46,473 bases of DNA from Candidatus Loosdrechtia aerotolerans. GTDB taxonomy: Bacteria > Planctomycetota > Brocadiia > Brocadiales > Brocadiaceae. The notes under the pieces are model-generated. The model was not told the origin of the DNA and searched no databases. It saw only the letters and a list, made by a program, of their open reading frames with translations. Every line of letters begins with the position of its first letter. The stretch's first letter is position 1. A program made the position numbers and the translations under genes. This document shows positions 2,452 to 29,953 of this stretch, in pieces. The stretch lies in assembly GCA_021646405.1 (NCBI GenBank), contig SOER01000025.1:1-46473 (forward strand). Direction: 5' to 3'.

Positions 2452-4989
2452 ATGAATCCAGAATATCTCTTACAGCAAGCAGCACACTCACGGCAAGTAC
2501 ATTTAATTGATTGCTTTAATATCATTAGAAAACATAAATGGGTTGTTATTATTTTCTTCCTGGTTGTAGTCTCTGCAGTTACAGCGGTAACATTTTCTGC
2601 CACGCCTGTCTATAAAGCTACTGCACAGATTATCATCGAAAGACGGTCTCTTTTTACCAGCGGGATGGTGAATGTTGCGAACATGGATCCCTACGATCAG
2701 AATTATCACCAAACACAATATAATTTATTAATGAGCAGAAGCCTCGCAAGGCGTGTGATCGAAGATTTGGACCTGGCGGAGGGTTTTGCAGCACTGCCAA
2801 ATACTTCATCACATGAATCTGCTGATATTTCTGGTTCATCAGAAACCCAAATACCATCTTATATTGTTAACTGGTATTTGTCAAACCTTGAGATTGTACC
2901 TCTTCCAGGTACCCACCTCCTGGATATTAACTATCTGAATTCCTCACCTGAAATGGCTGCACGCATTGTCAATGCACATGCTCACGCGTTTATTGAGAGA
3001 AATGCTCAAAGGCAGCGTTTGGTCTCATTTCGCACGCTAGATTGGCTTAAGACGCAACTTCTGGCCCAGAAAATGAAAGTAGGAACATCTCAGCAGGCAA
3101 TTTATGAGTATAAATATCAACAACTAAAATCGTTTTCTCCTGGTGATGAAAGTATTTTTTCACTGCCGGAACTTATGGAGAGCTATGTTATTCAGGACCT
3201 CCGCAGACGGTTATCTGAATTTCAGGCGCTGAGGCTGGAGATGTCTACCAAATATGGTCCTAAATATCCGAAAATTGTTGAGGTCGATGCTAATATCAGG
3301 CGATTAGAACAGAAACTCACAGATGAAGTGTACAGGATAAGGGATTCAATAAAAATGGAACTGGATCGAATAGTGGCCCTTGAAGAGACTGCCCGGAAGA
3401 ATCAGCATTCTCTCCAACAGATGTCTGCATCTCCTGAAAAAGCTATTAACTATAACCTGCTGCATTTGGAGGCAGAGAACGACCAGACAATGTACGATAT
3501 CTTACTAAAACACTTAAAAGAGATTAGCCTTACCGGTGATATGGAGAGGGACAATATTCGTATTGTGGATGAGGCAGAACTACCACTCTTTCCAACCAAG
3601 CCAAGGGTATTCTTAAATATCTCTCTGGCCGTGATATTAGGTTTGACATTTGGTACAGGGCTCGCCTTTTTCCTTGAATATATGGATAAAACGGTAAAGA
3701 CCCCTAAAGATATTATGCAACATCTGGGATTGTCAGTACTTGGTATGGTACCTTATGACAGGTCTTTAAAGCGAAATAAGATGCTTGCTTTACCACCGGG
3801 TGATTCATGTGGCAGTGGGAACAGTTTTAAAGATAGTTATTACAAATATGATGTTTCTTACGGCCTTATTGCTAAACTGCCATTAATGCAATCCCGGGCA
3901 TCTGGTCAGGTATTTTTAGTAGAGAGTACCATTGCCGGTGAGGGGAAGAGTACCGTTCTTGCTAAATCTGCCATAAGTCTGGCAAAAGGAGTGCTGCGGG
4001 TAATTATGGTTGATGCCGACTTGCAGCGGCCTTCTTTACACTACCTATTCGGATTAGAGAATGGCAGGGGGGAAAGCGGATTGATAAACGCCATGGAAGG
4101 GATTCTGTCACAGGGACTGAAAAAGGGAAGCTTACATGAGTACAGCATAGATGATCTTTTTTCACTTATTGCCTTAAAAAAACAGAGCGGACAGCTTGTC
4201 ATTACCAATGATACACAGTCCATGTCAGCTATCTTTGAAAATGGCCGCCTTTTTCATATGCAAAATCAAGTTATTTCAAACACCAATCAGCCTCCAAGTA
4301 CCAATCGGCTTGGCAGCATACTCATACGGGAGGGGATTATTACAGAAAGTCAACTGAAAGATGCCCTGGAAAGAAATCAGCGTACAGGCCAACCGTTAGG
4401 TTACATTCTTATTAATGCAGGATATATTAATCAGAGTCAATTACAAAGGCCTTTAAAGCTGCAGATAGAGGAACGCCTCCAGAAATTGTTTAGCTGGAAA
4501 CAGGGTACTTTCGCTTTTAAACCGGGCAGGGTAGAAACATACGAAGACAAAAGAATCTATTTTGAAGAAGATTATGTACCGCTTATCAATCGCTTAGGCG
4601 CTTTAGCAGGAAGCCGTTTAATTGAAAAGGAGGTCTTGTCTTATGCGAAGTCTGTCCATGAGTCAAATCTGACACTCCTACCTGCTGGTACTGGCGGAGG
4701 AAACGTAAAACTCGATGGGCCTCTCTATTACACGTTACTTTCAAAATTTTTAACCATTTTGAAACAACACTACGATGTAGTACTGGTAGATGGTCCTCCA
4801 TTCCAGGAAGCTGCAAGCAGTGTAACGCCTTTACTTCCTCTGGTGGACGGGGTAATTTTTGTAATAAAAGCTGGGAAGGCATCAATTGAGAGTATTCATA
4901 GGGCGACCACCCATATTAAAAGTGTTAATTCAAATATTATTGGCGTAGTCCTGAATCAGACAAAAACAGGATATAATGATTTGTCATAA
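2452..4989 (+). CDS. Wzc/GumC-type chain-length regulator fused to a BY-kinase-like ATPase with a DUF4388/MshEN-like insertion
   Basis: This 845-residue inner-membrane protein would control polysaccharide chain length and export. A Wzz domain starts with a membrane helix at about 30-50. A long helical periplasmic part follows (about 200-345), then a second helix at about 386-409 after a proline-rich PLFPTKP motif. The cytoplasmic ATPase has Walker A at 492-501 (GEGKST, K499), Walker A' at 517-527 (VDADLQRP) and Walker B at 774-783 (YDVVLVDGPP). Between A' and B lie about 165 extra residues (about 564-727). They begin like DUF4388/PATAN (DLFSLIALKKQSGQLVI), continue with an MshEN-like segment from R619 (RLGSILIREGIITESQL ... 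LGYILINAGYI), and end with the LFSWKQGTFAFKPG stretch typical of DUF4388 proteins. The tail has one tyrosine (Y841) rather than a tyrosine cluster, so autophosphorylation may be absent. Confidence 0.9.
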   Translation: MNPEYLLQQAAHSRQVHLIDCFNIIRKHKWVVIIFFLVVVSAVTAVTFSATPVYKATAQIIIERRSLFTSGMVNVANMDPYDQNYHQTQYNLLMSRSLARRVIEDLDLAEGFAALPNTSSHESADISGSSETQIPSYIVNWYLSNLEIVPLPGTHLLDINYLNSSPEMAARIVNAHAHAFIERNAQRQRLVSFRTLDWLKTQLLAQKMKVGTSQQAIYEYKYQQLKSFSPGDESIFSLPELMESYVIQDLRRRLSEFQALRLEMSTKYGPKYPKIVEVDANIRRLEQKLTDEVYRIRDSIKMELDRIVALEETARKNQHSLQQMSASPEKAINYNLLHLEAENDQTMYDILLKHLKEISLTGDMERDNIRIVDEAELPLFPTKPRVFLNISLAVILGLTFGTGLAFFLEYMDKTVKTPKDIMQHLGLSVLGMVPYDRSLKRNKMLALPPGDSCGSGNSFKDSYYKYDVSYGLIAKLPLMQSRASGQVFLVESTIAGEGKSTVLAKSAISLAKGVLRVIMVDADLQRPSLHYLFGLENGRGESGLINAMEGILSQGLKKGSLHEYSIDDLFSLIALKKQSGQLVITNDTQSMSAIFENGRLFHMQNQVISNTNQPPSTNRLGSILIREGIITESQLKDALERNQRTGQPLGYILINAGYINQSQLQRPLKLQIEERLQKLFSWKQGTFAFKPGRVETYEDKRIYFEEDYVPLINRLGALAGSRLIEKEVLSYAKSVHESNLTLLPAGTGGGNVKLDGPLYYTLLSKFLTILKQHYDVVLVDGPPFQEAASSVTPLLPLVDGVIFVIKAGKASIESIHRATTHIKSVNSNIIGVVLNQTKTGYNDLS

Positions 4990-5013: not shown

Positions 5014-5079
5014 ATGAAGAATAAAATTATCCAGAATAATTGGTTGATAACAGGGGGGCTTGATTTACATGAAGAATAA
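5014..5079 (+). other. 21-codon leader ORF made by duplication of the epimerase start
   Basis: Bases 5013-5057 repeat 5068-5112 with about 41 of 45 identical, an offset of 55 bases. The first copy carries its own ATG and would encode a peptide starting MKNKIIQNNWLITGG, like the epimerase start, then run out of frame to TAA at 5077-5079, just past the real start at 5069. Either it is a neutral local duplication or its translation affects initiation of the epimerase. I cannot tell which from sequence. Confidence 0.6.
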
Positions 5080-6094
5080 AATCACCCAGAATAATTGGTT
5101 GATAACGGGAGGATGTGGATTTATCGGTAATAATCTCATCAAGAGATTAATCAAAGACAGATTAGGGAAGAAAATTTGTATCCTTGACAATTTAAGGGTT
5201 GGAACAATTGAAGATCTCGAATCAGTCCTCATTGAGTTTGGAAATTTCAGCAGAACATCAAGTGATACAAAAATTAATTATACTTTTGAGATGGAGACGC
5301 ATTCAACCATAGAACTCCTGGTTGGTGATATCCGTAACAAAAAGATTGTAGAGGATGCAATTAAGGATGTAAATGTAGTTGTGCATCTTGCTGCAAATAC
5401 TGGTGTGGGGGCATCAGTTGAAAATCCAATACAGGATATGGAAGTGAATGTGACAGGTACTCTTAATTTACTTGAGGCATCAAGAAAGAACCACGTAAAG
5501 CAATTTATCTTCGCCTCGTCCGGAGCAACTATTGGTGAAGTAGAGCCGCCAGTCCATGAAGGAAAGGTTCCCAAACCAGTTTCACCCTATGGGGCAAGCA
5601 AACTTTCTGGAGAGGGTTATTGTTCTGCCTACTACCGTGCTTTTGGTATAAAGACGATTTCTTTGCGTTTTGGGAATGTCTACGGTCCCTTGTCAAGACA
5701 TAAAAATAGCGTTGTTGCAATGTTCATGAAGCGAGCTTTGAATGGTAAAACCCTCGAGATATATGGTGATGGTAAACAAACTCGTGATTTTATTTATATC
5801 GATGACCTCGTGGATGCTATTATCCTTGCTTCGAAAACAGAAATAGGGGGAGAGGTTTTCCAGATCGCTACCTACAAAGAAACAACCATTAATGAAATAG
5901 CCGATGCTGTGAAAGAGCTAATTGAAAAAGAAACCGATGAAAAGGTAAATATTGTATATAGAGACTGTAGACCCGGTGATGTAAAAAGAAATTTCTCTGA
6001 TATTTCAAAAGCGAGAAAGATATTAGGTTTTGAACCAAAATACGATTTAGTTGCAGGATTAAGAAAGACATTTGAGTGTTTTGTTCATAAGTGA
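5069..6094 (+). CDS. NAD-dependent nucleotide-sugar epimerase/dehydratase (UDP-glucose 4-epimerase-like)
   Basis: This is an extended short-chain dehydrogenase that should interconvert or dehydrate nucleotide sugars for the glycan. The NAD-binding GGCGFIG motif lies at about residues 14-20. The catalytic YGASK motif and upstream SSG serine are present, followed by RFGNVYGP, the usual substrate-binding loop. Near the end RPGDVKRNFSDISKA is the signature of UDP-sugar 4-epimerases. I chose ATG 5069 because a G-rich Shine-Dalgarno (AGGGGGG) lies nine bases upstream and it starts the conserved fold; the TTG at 5060 only adds three residues. It is 341 residues, normal for the family. The first codons are duplicated upstream. 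The exact sugar cannot be read from sequence. Confidence 0.92.
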   Translation: MKNKITQNNWLITGGCGFIGNNLIKRLIKDRLGKKICILDNLRVGTIEDLESVLIEFGNFSRTSSDTKINYTFEMETHSTIELLVGDIRNKKIVEDAIKDVNVVVHLAANTGVGASVENPIQDMEVNVTGTLNLLEASRKNHVKQFIFASSGATIGEVEPPVHEGKVPKPVSPYGASKLSGEGYCSAYYRAFGIKTISLRFGNVYGPLSRHKNSVVAMFMKRALNGKTLEIYGDGKQTRDFIYIDDLVDAIILASKTEIGGEVFQIATYKETTINEIADAVKELIEKETDEKVNIVYRDCRPGDVKRNFSDISKARKILGFEPKYDLVAGLRKTFECFVHK

Positions 6095-6571: not shown

Positions 6572-8110
6572 ATGACCATTCCGGTACCGAGCAAAAAGAC
6601 CGATCGTACTTCCCAGAGCATCATTCACCGTACCTTGAGTGGTTTTTCCTGGACGTTTTCAGGTACAGGTGTGCGGGTTGGTTTGGAGCTGTTGGTGATG
6701 GCCGTGCTGGCCAGGCTTCTTACTCCCAGAGACTTTGGGGTTGTTGCTGTAGCTGTGCTCGTAGTGAGACTCGCAGAGGTATTCGCCCAGATAGGTATTG
6801 GTCCGGCGATAGTTCAACGGATAGATCTCAAGGCGATACATATGCGTGCGGGCTTTACTATTTCATGGCTTTCAGGCCTGTTTCTCATGTTTCTTGTTTC
6901 ATTCCTTGCTCCGCAGATTTCTTCTTTTTTCCAAATGGAAGAGCTGATACCTGTTGTTCGGGTTACGTCAATTGTATTCTTTTTTCACGGGATATGTTTG
7001 GTAGCAGAGTCCCTCTTGCAGCGGGAGTTTCAATTCAGATGGTTAGCAATAGTCCAGGTAGTTTCTTATGCGATAGGCTATGGCGGTGCTGGAATTTGTT
7101 TCGCATTCTTAGGGTTTGGCGTATGGAGCCTGGTTTTCGCTTTTATTTCACAAATGGTAGTGAAAAGTATTTTTTTACTGATAATCAAGCATCATCCGAT
7201 GCGACCATCGCTTGAACGCCGTGCTGTTGCCGATCTGATGTATTTCGGCGGTGGATTTACCCTTTCCCGGATTGGTAACGCAATTGCAGGACAGGGAGAC
7301 TACCTGGTCGTAGGGCGTTGGCTCGGAGCAGATGCACTGGGGTTTTATGGGAGGGCTTATCAATTAATGACGATACCTGCAATGCTCTTTGCCAAGATTA
7401 TTGACACGGTGCTTTTCCCTGCAATGGCAAAGATTCAGATGCAGCAAGACCGTTTAAGAACCGCATACAGAAGAGGAGTAGCATTAATTGCCCTGATTGT
7501 TTTACCTGCAAGTGCAACTGCATATATGTTATCCCCTGAAATAATTACGGTAGTTTTTGGGCCTAAGTGGCTTGAGGCCGTTGTGCCTTTCAAGATCTTT
7601 GCTATGGCTATCCTGTTCCGTACAAGTTACAAAATGAGTGATTCTCTTGCCAGAGCGACAGGGGCAGTTTATAAAAGGGCCTGGCGGCAGGGTGTCTACG
7701 CTGCCCTCGTTTTAGGAGGTGCCATAATTGGCCAGTATTGGGGTATACACGGGGTTGCTTATGGGGTTTTTTTTGCTATTGTAGTGAATTTTATACTCAT
7801 GGCCCATCTGAGTTTGGCAGCGTTGTCATTATCCTGGAAGGAGTTCTTTGTTGTTCATGTATCTGCATTACCCCTGACGGCCATTGTCCTGTTAGAAGTA
7901 TTTAGTATAACTACTGTGTTAAGAAATGCAGCAATGCCGGCACTGGTAATCCTTGCTTCATCGATGGTGTGTGTCCTTGTTACTATAACCCTGCTTTTCT
8001 ACCTTTCGTCTAAAAGTATGCTGGGAAGGGATGGGATATGGATGCTCCAGACGTTATCAAATTATATCCCAAATAAGATAAATCCGTTTAAGAACAGAGC
8101 TGCCCTTTAA
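6572..8110 (+). CDS. Polysaccharide flippase (Wzx-like, MOP superfamily)
   Basis: This 512-residue integral membrane protein has about 12-14 hydrophobic segments and no large soluble domain. It opens with an amphipathic stretch and GFSWTFSGTGVRVGLELLVM, then LTPRDFGVVAVAVLVV, the typical N-terminus of lipopolysaccharide flippases that move lipid-linked repeat units across the inner membrane. A conserved YLVVGRWLGADALGFYGRAYQL block at about residues 246-267 is characteristic of this branch. The C-terminus is a basic tail. It sits downstream of the epimerase, separated by the repeat element, so it may have its own promoter. Its presence next to a Wza, a Wzc and an O-antigen polymerase/ligase points to a Wzx/Wzy-dependent pathway. 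Confidence 0.9.
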   Translation: MTIPVPSKKTDRTSQSIIHRTLSGFSWTFSGTGVRVGLELLVMAVLARLLTPRDFGVVAVAVLVVRLAEVFAQIGIGPAIVQRIDLKAIHMRAGFTISWLSGLFLMFLVSFLAPQISSFFQMEELIPVVRVTSIVFFFHGICLVAESLLQREFQFRWLAIVQVVSYAIGYGGAGICFAFLGFGVWSLVFAFISQMVVKSIFLLIIKHHPMRPSLERRAVADLMYFGGGFTLSRIGNAIAGQGDYLVVGRWLGADALGFYGRAYQLMTIPAMLFAKIIDTVLFPAMAKIQMQQDRLRTAYRRGVALIALIVLPASATAYMLSPEIITVVFGPKWLEAVVPFKIFAMAILFRTSYKMSDSLARATGAVYKRAWRQGVYAALVLGGAIIGQYWGIHGVAYGVFFAIVVNFILMAHLSLAALSLSWKEFFVVHVSALPLTAIVLLEVFSITTVLRNAAMPALVILASSMVCVLVTITLLFYLSSKSMLGRDGIWMLQTLSNYIPNKINPFKNRAAL

Positions 8111-10556: not shown

Positions 10557-11831
10557 ATGAGATCTCTAGAACATAATCGAAATACTGTCATCTCTGGTTT
10601 GACGATTGCTACATTTGCAACGCTCCCTTTGTATCTGTTTCAATCCGGTGGTTTTCAAATTGTAGATGCAATAATAATTTTACTCTCGGCTGCACTATTC
10701 ATAACGATTACTTATTGTGAAGTTCAAACAGGGCTATATTTAATAGGTCCATTTATACCGTTTATTTCATGGGTGGTTATTGTCAATTCATACTATGCAA
10801 CGGAAGCTATTTCAGAAACAGGATATCTCCTCAGTACTGCACAACTTATTTTTGGATTCTATGTATTATTTTTGTTCTCTATAGCATTCAAGCGGATCTT
10901 ATCAAATCTTTGGGGAATATCCTGTCTCTATTGGGGCTTGTTAGCATCGTGTCTAACCCCGTGGTTAATGAGAGCAAATAGTAAAACACTAAGAAGCGCT
11001 TTATCATTCAATAATCCAAATCAATTAGCGTATTATTCAATATTAATACTCTCCATGCTCTTGTTCGTTAATCTTTTGAATACAAAAACACGAAGGAAAA
11101 GTATAGTACACTGGATATTGAATATTACCATTATCATAATCTGTAATATCTTTGTTCTGGTATCCGCTTCAAGGGCCGGTACTGTTGTTGTAATTTTATT
11201 AGATATTTGTTTACTCTACATACTCTTAAAAGAGTATATAAAATTGTTTGTGTCATTAGCCGTCATGCTGGTTTTTCTTTCAGTAACGCTTTCAGTAGTG
11301 AGTAAACACTATGGAGCCGTTTTTACTCCAAGATCTCAGAATACAACAGAAATTAAGGATACAACACAAATGAGTCGTATAGAGGCAATAAATTATCGAT
11401 TTTCCCGTGGCGGTAATGTAATAGAGGTTCTCGGTAAACGTGTATCGTATATTCAAAATGATGATACCTTTAGTATTTTATTCGGTAACGGTGGGCGGAA
11501 ATTCGTGCGTCAAAAAGAAAAAAGTATTGAAGATTTGTCTATGAGAGAGGTACATAATGCGCCCGTGGAGATTTATGATTCCTACGGTATTGTGGGTGCT
11601 GTGTTATTTTTAGGAGGTTCAGTATTTTTTGTGATGAGACTTGGAACTTTCCCCTCTAAATGGCTTTTTTTTATAACATTGCTGTTATATAACATATCCC
11701 ATAATGGTATACGTTTCCGGAGTATGTGGGTCGCTATTGCATTGGTTTCTATCGTTTCTCTCCTCAAGAAAGACCAATTGAGTACACAATATCAATTCAC
11801 AAAGCTGCGGCCTGTGGATTATACACGTTGA
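10557..11831 (+). CDS. O-antigen ligase/polymerase-like membrane protein (Wzy/WaaL family)
   Basis: This 424-residue protein has about ten hydrophobic helices and a large extracytoplasmic loop (about residues 255-340). The loop is preceded by LVSASRAGTVVVI and contains HNAPVEIYDSYGIVG, matching the central loop of O-antigen ligases and polymerases. These enzymes join lipid-linked oligosaccharides into a polymer or transfer them to an acceptor; both use the same fold, so the role cannot be separated by sequence. With the flippase and Wzc-like protein nearby, a polymerase role is more likely. The start has only a weak upstream AGG. Confidence 0.8.
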   Translation: MRSLEHNRNTVISGLTIATFATLPLYLFQSGGFQIVDAIIILLSAALFITITYCEVQTGLYLIGPFIPFISWVVIVNSYYATEAISETGYLLSTAQLIFGFYVLFLFSIAFKRILSNLWGISCLYWGLLASCLTPWLMRANSKTLRSALSFNNPNQLAYYSILILSMLLFVNLLNTKTRRKSIVHWILNITIIIICNIFVLVSASRAGTVVVILLDICLLYILLKEYIKLFVSLAVMLVFLSVTLSVVSKHYGAVFTPRSQNTTEIKDTTQMSRIEAINYRFSRGGNVIEVLGKRVSYIQNDDTFSILFGNGGRKFVRQKEKSIEDLSMREVHNAPVEIYDSYGIVGAVLFLGGSVFFVMRLGTFPSKWLFFITLLLYNISHNGIRFRSMWVAIALVSIVSLLKKDQLSTQYQFTKLRPVDYTR

Positions 11832-28067: not shown

Positions 28068-28950
28068 ATGATTCGACATAAACAACCACTTGCCGAGGTC
28101 TTCGGATATTTGGTTGGTGATCAATCACCCCAAGCTATCCGATACCGCTCGCATCGCCTCTGTCCATTTAATAACAAAGTTTCCCAATTGCACTAAGGAC
28201 AAAGCAAAGGACCCTCTCGGTGTATGCAGTGTATTCCACAATGATAAGCCAGTAATAACATGTCCTATCAGATTTAGGGAGGATTGGCTTATCACCGATG
28301 ATGCAGCATCTTTTTTCTTTAGTGAAGATACTGCATGGAGTTCCCTTACAGAAGTCCGTTTGAATGACGCCCAAGGAAAGTCAGCTGGCAATATTGACGT
28401 TGTTCTTGTTGCATACGATGACCATGGGAAAATCTTTGATTTTGGCGTTCTCGAAATACAAGCAGTTTACATCTCCGGAAATGTTCGTGACCCCTTCGGG
28501 TATTATATAAAAGCTCCCAAGTCTAGGGGACAAATGAATTGGTCAAATCAGCCAAATTATCCACGTCCGGATTATCTCTCATCTTCCCGTAAACGACTTG
28601 CTCCACAGTTACTGTTTAAAGGGGGAATCCTTCATTCATGGCAGAAGAAAATAGCCGTAGCATTGAACAAAAACTTTTTTGACACACTTCCATCCCTGAC
28701 GACGGTACATAAATCGAAAGCAGATATCGCATGGTTAATATACGATCTTGAATTGATCAAAGATGGTGTTCATAATAGGTATAAACTCATGAAAATTGAT
28801 GAAGTATTTACTGAATTCGAACCCGCACTTTTGTCGATTACTACTCCGGTACCGGGGAAGATCAATGATTTTTTAGAACTGCTTCAGGACAAACTTGACG
28901 GGCAGATCGTGACACCACCAAATAATAAGACAATTGAAAGGCCATTTTAA
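28068..28950 (+). pseudogene. NotI-family type II restriction endonuclease, frameshifted
   Basis: The reading frame from ATG 28068 (GAGGG nine bases upstream) gives MIRHKQPLAEVFGYL... HRLCPFNNKV and stops at 28194-28196. A second frame continues with FPNCTKDKAKDPLGVCSVF ... ITCPIRFREDWLI ... NIDVVLVAYDD ... LEIQAVYISGN to 28950. Removing one T from GTTTCCC (28179-28185) joins them as NNKVPNCTKDKA, the continuous sequence expected of NotI-family enzymes, giving 293 residues. The four cysteines (LCPF, PNC, GVC, ITC) correspond to the iron-binding cysteines described for NotI, and the D...ExQ pair is the likely catalytic centre. The shift falls between cysteines 1 and 2, so the product is either dead or a sequencing error. 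The methyltransferase follows immediately. Confidence 0.8.
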
Positions 28951-28951
28951 A

Positions 28952-29953
28952 ATGAAACTACCCAAACAACGGTCGTTATTTCCAGAGCTAAGTGGAGATT
29001 TGTCACCACCAAAACCTGTTAATGTTGCCTGCATTCCACAGAGAAGCCCTTTTCGCTATCCGGGGGGAAAAACGTGGTTCGTTCCTACTTTCCGAGATTG
29101 GGCCGCAAATCATTATCCAGAGCCCAAAATATTAATCGAACCTTTTGCCGGTGGTGGAATTATAAGTCTCACAGCCCTGTTTGAAAATCTCGTCTCACGT
29201 GTCGTCATGGTTGAAATTGATGAGGATATAGCGGCGGTATGGCAATCAGTAGTAGATGGACACGCAGAATGGATTGCAAATAAGATACTTTCCTTTGATC
29301 TGACAAAGGAATCAGTTGTTGCTGAGATAACTAAATCAAACGTAGACACAAGGGAAAAAGCCTTTCATACTATCCTGAAGAATCGCACATTTCACGGAGG
29401 CATTTTAGCGGAAGGATCAGGTTTCTTAAAGTACGGAGAGAACGGGAAAGGCATAAAATCCCGATGGTATCCTACAACTCTTGCCAAAAGATTTTTTAAT
29501 CTGAAACACGTTGCTGACAGAATCTCATTTCATAAGGAAGACGGATTGAAAGTTATTCAAAGATATTCACAACATCGGGACGTAATTTTCTTCATTGATC
29601 CTCCTTACACCGCTGGAGGAAAGAGAGCGGGTAAAAGGCTTTATCGTCACTTCACCCTTGATCATGAGCAATTATTTACGCTCTGTGAATCAATTAAAGG
29701 AGATTTTTTGATGACCTATGATAATACAGATGAGGCCAAATCTATGGCTAGAAACCATAGATTTCAAATGCGTCTTATTCCTATGAAGAACACTCATCAT
29801 GCGACAATGGAGGAACTCGTTATTGGAAGAGACCTATCATGGATGGATCGTTACCCTGCAGTACACGAACCCCTTACAGAATACAATATCGTATGCAAAA
29901 AAGAGAGGGTCCCAAAAAAGTGCTCCAGCGGACAGAGTAAACCACGCCACTGA
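28952..29953 (+). CDS. DNA N6-adenine methyltransferase, D12 (Dam) class
   Basis: This 333-residue enzyme should protect the genome from the NotI-family nuclease encoded one base upstream. The motifs are in D12 order: FRYPGGK (about 34-40), the SAM-binding EPFAGGG (63-69), and the catalytic DPPY (216-219). GGILAEGSGFL, typical of this class, lies between them. I choose ATG 28952 because AAAGG lies about 11 bases upstream, although an in-frame TTG at 28934 would add six residues. DPPY indicates adenine as the usual target; the recognition sequence is unknown. Unlike the nuclease it is intact, as expected when a restriction system decays but protection remains. Confidence 0.85.
   Translation: MKLPKQRSLFPELSGDLSPPKPVNVACIPQRSPFRYPGGKTWFVPTFRDWAANHYPEPKILIEPFAGGGIISLTALFENLVSRVVMVEIDEDIAAVWQSVVDGHAEWIANKILSFDLTKESVVAEITKSNVDTREKAFHTILKNRTFHGGILAEGSGFLKYGENGKGIKSRWYPTTLAKRFFNLKHVADRISFHKEDGLKVIQRYSQHRDVIFFIDPPYTAGGKRAGKRLYRHFTLDHEQLFTLCESIKGDFLMTYDNTDEAKSMARNHRFQMRLIPMKNTHHATMEELVIGRDLSWMDRYPAVHEPLTEYNIVCKKERVPKKCSSGQSKPRH

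Follow-up and report, generated by a model that had tools for sequence, protein, structure and literature searches.

Positions 2452-4989 on the forward strand of the window (i.e., the whole analysed stretch of 46,473 nucleotides) belong to a Wzx/Wzy locus for exopolysaccharide and encode a Wzc-like polysaccharide co-polymerase of 845 residues, whose P-loop ATPase fold is interrupted by a DUF4388 domain that encloses an MshEN-type cyclic di-GMP (c-di-GMP) motif. A sensory insert between Walker A' and Walker B had been claimed in the original prediction and was found there, with Walker A' at residue 521, the two MshEN motifs at residues 619 and 648, and Walker B at residue 776. The reading favoured here, regarded as reasonably probable as a whole, is that of a c-di-GMP-responsive Wzx/Wzy co-polymerase in which ligand binding would gate assembly or ATPase activity.

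The locus was typed as Wzx/Wzy based on the Pfam matches of the genes neighbouring the co-polymerase gene. A Wza-type gene lies directly upstream, and on the 3' side genes for an epimerase, a Wzx-type flippase, a weak Wzy-type candidate, and glycosyltransferases were identified:

1570-2418, + strand: Wza-type outer-membrane polysaccharide export protein, Poly_export and SLBB domains (PF02563, 3.7e-23; PF10531, 1.4e-23)
2452-4989, + strand: Wzc-like polysaccharide co-polymerase with the inset, 845 aa (Pfam Wzz, GNVR, AAA_31/CbiA/ParA)
6572-8110, + strand: Wzx-type flippase of the same locus (Pfam Polysacc_synt_3, 3.6e-77)
10557-11831, + strand: candidate Wzy-type polymerase (Wzy_C, 1.4e-5; 25.4 bits, below the Pfam cut-off of 31.7)

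A wza homologue was also located upstream of the co-polymerase gene in 13 of 14 homologous loci, across phyla, and the combination of Wzz, GNVR, and P-loop in one chain with a wza neighbour is that of the PCP-2a co-polymerases. Window positions 5014-5112 contain two tandem copies of the first part of the epimerase gene, about 55 bp apart, of which the upstream one is out of frame. Further along the window (28090-29953), a NotI-like restriction endonuclease (PF12183, 4.8e-57) adjoins an N6-adenine methyltransferase of the D12 class; for an enzyme of the NotI type, pairing with an adenine methylase is unexpected.

Within the protein, the domain order according to Pfam is Wzz (residues 16-106), GNVR (338-407), and the P-loop ATPase (from about 484 onwards). 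The ATPase retains Walker A, the DxD of Walker A', and Walker B of the BY-kinases, and the inset is situated as follows:

3937-3954, + strand: Walker A, GEGKST, residues 496-501 (E-G-K invariant in 20 carriers of the inset)
4012-4032, + strand: Walker A', DADLQRP, residues 521-527 (the arginine of DxDxR replaced by Q)
4093-4656, + strand: whole inserted region as modelled, residues 548-735 (alignment with insert-free paralogues; AlphaFold2)
4123-4536, + strand: DUF4388 (PF14332), residues 558-695, split around the MshEN motif (Pfam)
4306-4464, + strand: MshEN-type c-di-GMP motif, residues 619-671 (NF053729, contact residues, match to 5htl)
4777-4800, + strand: Walker B, VVLVDGPP, residues 776-783

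Besides the E-G-K of Walker A, both aspartates of DxD and the Walker B aspartate were invariant in the 20 carriers. Modelled by AlphaFold2 from a 15-row alignment, residues 440-845 had a mean pLDDT of 76 and, outside the inset, were aligned with the kinase domains of VpsO, CapAB, Wzc, Etk, and BceF at Z 20-24 over 192-213 residues. Hence, the protein shares Wzz, GNVR, and P-loop domains, the three Walker motifs, the wza gene directly upstream, and the predicted fold with Wzc-type co-polymerases and BY-kinases such as E. coli Wzc, S. aureus CapAB, and V. cholerae VpsO, unlike which it carries a sensory inset of about 175 residues between Walker A' and Walker B.

The inset had been placed at 4141-4632 with a length of about 165 residues; this stretch is in frame with the open reading frame (residues 564-727) and its position was accurate, while the extra sequence proved slightly larger, spanning about 175 residues at roughly 552-735. 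DUF4388, which may be equivalent to the PATAN domain, was matched with 82.6 bits (E = 3.1e-23, gathering cut-off 25, Pfam), and inside this match, as predicted, an MshEN-like segment was recovered at residues 619-669 by NF053729 ("c-di-GMP_motif, MshE-related", NCBIfam; E = 8e-16, 57.6 bits, cut-off 38). The motif pair, RLGSILIREGIITESQLKDALERN-QRTGQ-PLGYILINAGYINQSQLQRPLKLQ, consists of motif I (RLG...N, starting at residue 619), a spacer of five residues, and motif II (PLG...Q, starting at 648), and both 24-residue motifs together with the spacer fit the relaxed pattern given by Wang et al. (PMC5013675). Both families were matched by all 15 of the 15 aligned homologues. Since the inset is in frame and was found in homologues of several phyla, an origin as a sequencing or assembly artefact or by chance was rejected.

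Structure prediction of the inset alone (residues 548-735, pLDDT 82) likewise yielded the anticipated MshEN-like fold rather than an unrelated one. The best Foldseek match was MshE with c-di-GMP (5htl; probability 1.00, 52-56 residues, 1.2-1.8 Å), its E-value of only 0.04 being modest because the matched bundle is short. In VIA, the model was aligned with the MshE-type fold at Z 7.0 over 60 residues; all rows with Z of at least 5 were N-domains of MshE, PilF, or PilB, and the remaining rows did not exceed 3.0. The predicted four-helix bundle matches that of PilF GSPII-B as well as 5htl. Rows of GyrB/MutL ATPases obtained for the DUF4388 part (Z of about 3 or less) were judged meaningless.

The survey of homologues for the insertion point, proposed along with the original prediction, returned the same inset at the same point in 23 proteins. 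In a tree of these 23 carriers and 12 insert-free relatives that was built without the inset, the carriers formed one clade (support 100/100). They include the anammox genera Jettenia, Brocadia, Kuenenia, Scalindua, and Anammoxibacter, as well as Desulfobacterales and MAGs assigned to Nitrospirae, "Deferribacteres," and "Proteobacteria." Matches at E < 1e-80 among 294 sampled Planctomycetota genomes were all within the window's own family; other families of its order also have inset-bearing members. For 247 genomes from the phylum of a Desulfosudis carrier, the single match at this threshold was the carrier itself. Across 20 carriers, MshEN was the most conserved part (mean pairwise identity 0.73, compared to 0.47 overall, 0.54 and 0.62 for the two DUF4388 flanks, and 0.54 and 0.45 for the two P-loop halves). 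Unrelated long proteins, among them other proteins of Planctomycetota, commonly contain the nested DUF4388[MshEN] cassette as well, so that it gives the impression of a pre-existing sensor grafted into the co-polymerase. Regarding the origin of the insets in co-polymerases and stand-alone kinases, the free tree implied three changes, and a single origin was not rejected (AU p = 0.31). No relatives were found in viral contigs, and the inset had no match in plasmids.

The Walker A' consensus of BY-kinases is DxDxR. Its arginine is Q525 in the window protein and is not R in 19 of the 20 carriers; the EX2RX2R motif is missing in all 20 (present in 4/4 insert-free paralogues), and the NPSE-L segment is gone in the carrier family. 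The number of tail tyrosines varies among carriers from zero to six, with two to four in most, none in two, and one in the window protein, which therefore has no C-terminal tyrosine cluster of the BY-kinase type. With these features lost and the tyrosine tail short or missing, unlike in Wzc, CapAB, and VpsO, the "polysaccharide-export kinase" of the original prediction is retained as a Wzc-like ATPase co-polymerase, and judging by its motifs kinase activity appears doubtful. The score against TIGR01007 (tyrosine autokinase) is in line with this (73.6 bits, below the NCBI cut-off of 108).

These losses bear on the best-surviving alternative, according to which the inset binds c-di-GMP and, instead of replacing the phosphorylation cycle, tunes the tyrosine autophosphorylation of a BY-kinase that is still active, as in canonical Wzc. 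In its favour is L200 (G417:C5, around 47030-47551), a stand-alone BY-kinase of 417 aa with the same inset in the same place; the MshEN motif of L200 is intact (39.4 bits, cut-off 38; Q at both ligand-glutamine positions), and the kinase hallmarks are present (DTDLRKP, PPNPS, a long tyrosine tail, and 203 bits against TIGR01007 with a cut-off of 108). The genome was furthermore suspected to be without a BY-kinase phosphatase, which was partly rejected: no LMW-PTP was found in it, but a CpsB/CapC-type (PHP) phosphatase homologue is present outside the window (G000:C22:172941-173648) as a candidate partner for the BY-kinases of the genome. Given this phosphatase and the two to four tail tyrosines of most homologues, a phosphorylation cycle may persist. 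Against such tuning stand the single tail tyrosine of the window protein and the lack of any in two carriers, the TIGR01007 score below the cut-off, and the loss throughout the 20 carriers of EX2RX2R, which is needed for trans-autophosphorylation in Wzc (PMC3795738). Tuning of an active kinase is considered unlikely.

For ligand binding by the inset, the contact residues of V. cholerae MshE (R9 L10 G11 L25 L29 Q32 / R38 L39 G40 L54 L58 Q61) correspond to R L G L L N / P L G L L Q, so that 10 of 12 are identical, in agreement with the nucleotide-contacting residues expected from the original prediction. The two changes, Q32N and R38P, both fall inside the same relaxed pattern (Wang et al., PMC5013675). 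R9, G11, G40, L54, Q61, and the proline at the R38 position are invariant in the 20 carriers; position 32 varies (N in 14, H in four, and C and Q in one each). Both changes have partial experimental precedents by analogy with Thermus PilF, in whose GSPII-C domain P335 at the R38 position is the sole departure from the consensus (PMC11731258). A PilF construct with all three GSPII domains bound two c-di-GMP with KD values of 17 and 460 nM, the tight site being assigned to GSPII-B and the lack of binding to GSPII-A, and GSPII-B with Q190E at the Q32 position retained binding at 950 nM (PMC11731258). GSPII-A, with H33 and a degenerate motif II, does not bind (PMC12002112). This case, the two deviating contact positions, and the variability of the Q32 position were counted against the favoured reading; on the whole, the inset is nonetheless likely to bind c-di-GMP.

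If it does not, the MshEN inset would be a structural or protein-docking element, like MshEN domains whose binding has been lost, such as that of Xcc GspE. Apart from the Q32N and R38P deviations, this is suggested by L131 (G064:C483:223-3756), a stand-alone BY-kinase with a long tyrosine cluster whose copy of the same inset has lost both pocket glycines (RLA, RLS), which indicates that the cassette can persist without the canonical pocket. Degeneration as in GspE is, however, not favoured given that no residues of the protein are better conserved across phyla than those of the pocket, and PilF tolerates either change on its own, a proline where MshE has R38 or a substitution of Q32. The opposite pattern was moreover found in L138 (G063:C89:84662-88195, Desulfatitalea), which lies roughly 5 kb away from the intact L130 and is a divergent paralogue of the co-polymerase: its Walker A and Walker B residues are lost, while both RLG motifs and Q61 are kept, making it a possible pseudo-ATPase with a live sensor. 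Taken together, the losses in L131 and L138 indicate that sensor and enzyme can decay separately, and a non-binding inset in the window protein is rated as improbable. A pocket shifted to another cyclic dinucleotide (e.g., a cGAMP) or to a different small molecule is very improbable: VcMshEN also binds cGAMP, albeit more weakly (PMC5013675), and two pocket side chains are changed here, but it is the backbone amides of the G-x pair that confer specificity (PMC5013675), these glycines are kept, and three intact GGDEF domains with RxxD sites are encoded in the genome.

These three are part of six GGDEF-domain matches in the genome and have an intact GG(D/E)EF together with RxxD. On the receptor side, four MshEN matches were obtained, three of them above the cut-off, the only DUF4388 of the genome is that of the co-polymerase, and PilZ was not detected in the genome. 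No Rfam family was matched in the window, which thus contains no known c-di-GMP riboswitch.

For a c-di-GMP-responsive co-polymerase, the following sequence of events is proposed. A ready-made DUF4388/MshEN cassette would have been inserted into the P-loop domain at a surface loop, between the helix following Walker A' and the strand leading to Walker B. Diguanylate cyclases would raise c-di-GMP, one molecule of which would be bound by the MshEN four-helix bundle, and DUF4388 would relay the change to the ATPase lobes, altering the nucleotide state and/or the contacts between ring subunits. Provided that the ligand is bound, such gating of the co-polymerase can be expected with some confidence; provided that gating occurs, chain polymerisation and export would be switched, and the activating direction seems the somewhat better guess. 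In the clade of the window protein, c-di-GMP control may replace much of the assembly and disassembly cycle driven by tyrosine phosphorylation, a proposal put forward only tentatively; most hallmarks of that cycle have disappeared there. Doubtful, and more so than this replacement, is the generalisation to a phosphorylation-independent class of Wzc-like proteins, in anammox bacteria and several other phyla, in which a c-di-GMP sensor in the ATPase fold would drive ring assembly and disassembly.

Several known systems resemble parts of this architecture. In EpsG (TIGR03029), an MshEN-like segment and a BY-kinase domain of an exopolysaccharide pathway are likewise joined in one polypeptide, but MshEN is N-terminal to the kinase domain there, whereas in the window protein it lies inside the kinase fold and is nested in DUF4388. 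The window protein scored 46.6 bits against TIGR03029 (cut-off 313.8), and its internal inset matched the model weakly at positions 8-56, the kinase half of which begins near 104; the protein is accordingly not an EpsG-type fusion. Wang et al. 2016 (PMC5013675) list an MshEN protein of Methylobacillus exopolysaccharide synthesis, which on our reading is EpsG itself; EpsG and this entry imply that MshEN beside a BY-kinase was already known. With the MshEN/GSPII domains of V. cholerae MshE, T. thermophilus PilF, and E. coli NfrB, the inset shares the 53-residue double motif, the predicted four-helix bundle, and ten of the twelve contacts, but unlike them it is enclosed in DUF4388, has no MshEN_C subdomain, and carries a proline at the R38 position (20/20 carriers) and mostly an asparagine at the Q32 position. 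Direct switching of an exopolysaccharide enzyme by MshEN has a precedent in NfrB (PMC8669469). MshEN is nested in DUF4388 in this way in other proteins of Planctomycetota and Desulfobacterota too; among the hosts sampled, no P-loop motif was observed except in the kinases L131 and L200. BY-kinase hallmarks are also lost in the BY-pseudokinase co-polymerases EcpK/EpsV of M. xanthus and HfsB/HfsA of C. crescentus, which points to a phosphorylation-independent cycle (PMC12004946). In those systems, the Walker motifs are lost, the pseudokinase is a separate protein, and no ligand sensor is known (PMC12004946), unlike in the window protein, which keeps the Walker lysine and aspartates and has its sensor built in. 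The original prediction had regarded the architecture as undescribed. This holds for the cassette within the kinase fold, which appears to be the new part, no description of it having been found in the literature searched (with partial coverage); the DUF4388[MshEN] cassette as such occurs commonly and is not new.

While c-di-GMP is the general biofilm switch, the literature searched does not describe a Wzx/Wzy co-polymerase that it controls directly. If the favoured reading is true, the co-polymerase itself would be the point at which c-di-GMP is linked to polymerisation and export of the chain, in a genome without a detected PilZ receptor and in anammox bacteria, organisms in which the matrix of granules and biofilms is important for treating wastewater. 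The family would also offer a natural case for how co-polymerases cycle once the hallmarks of tyrosine phosphorylation erode.
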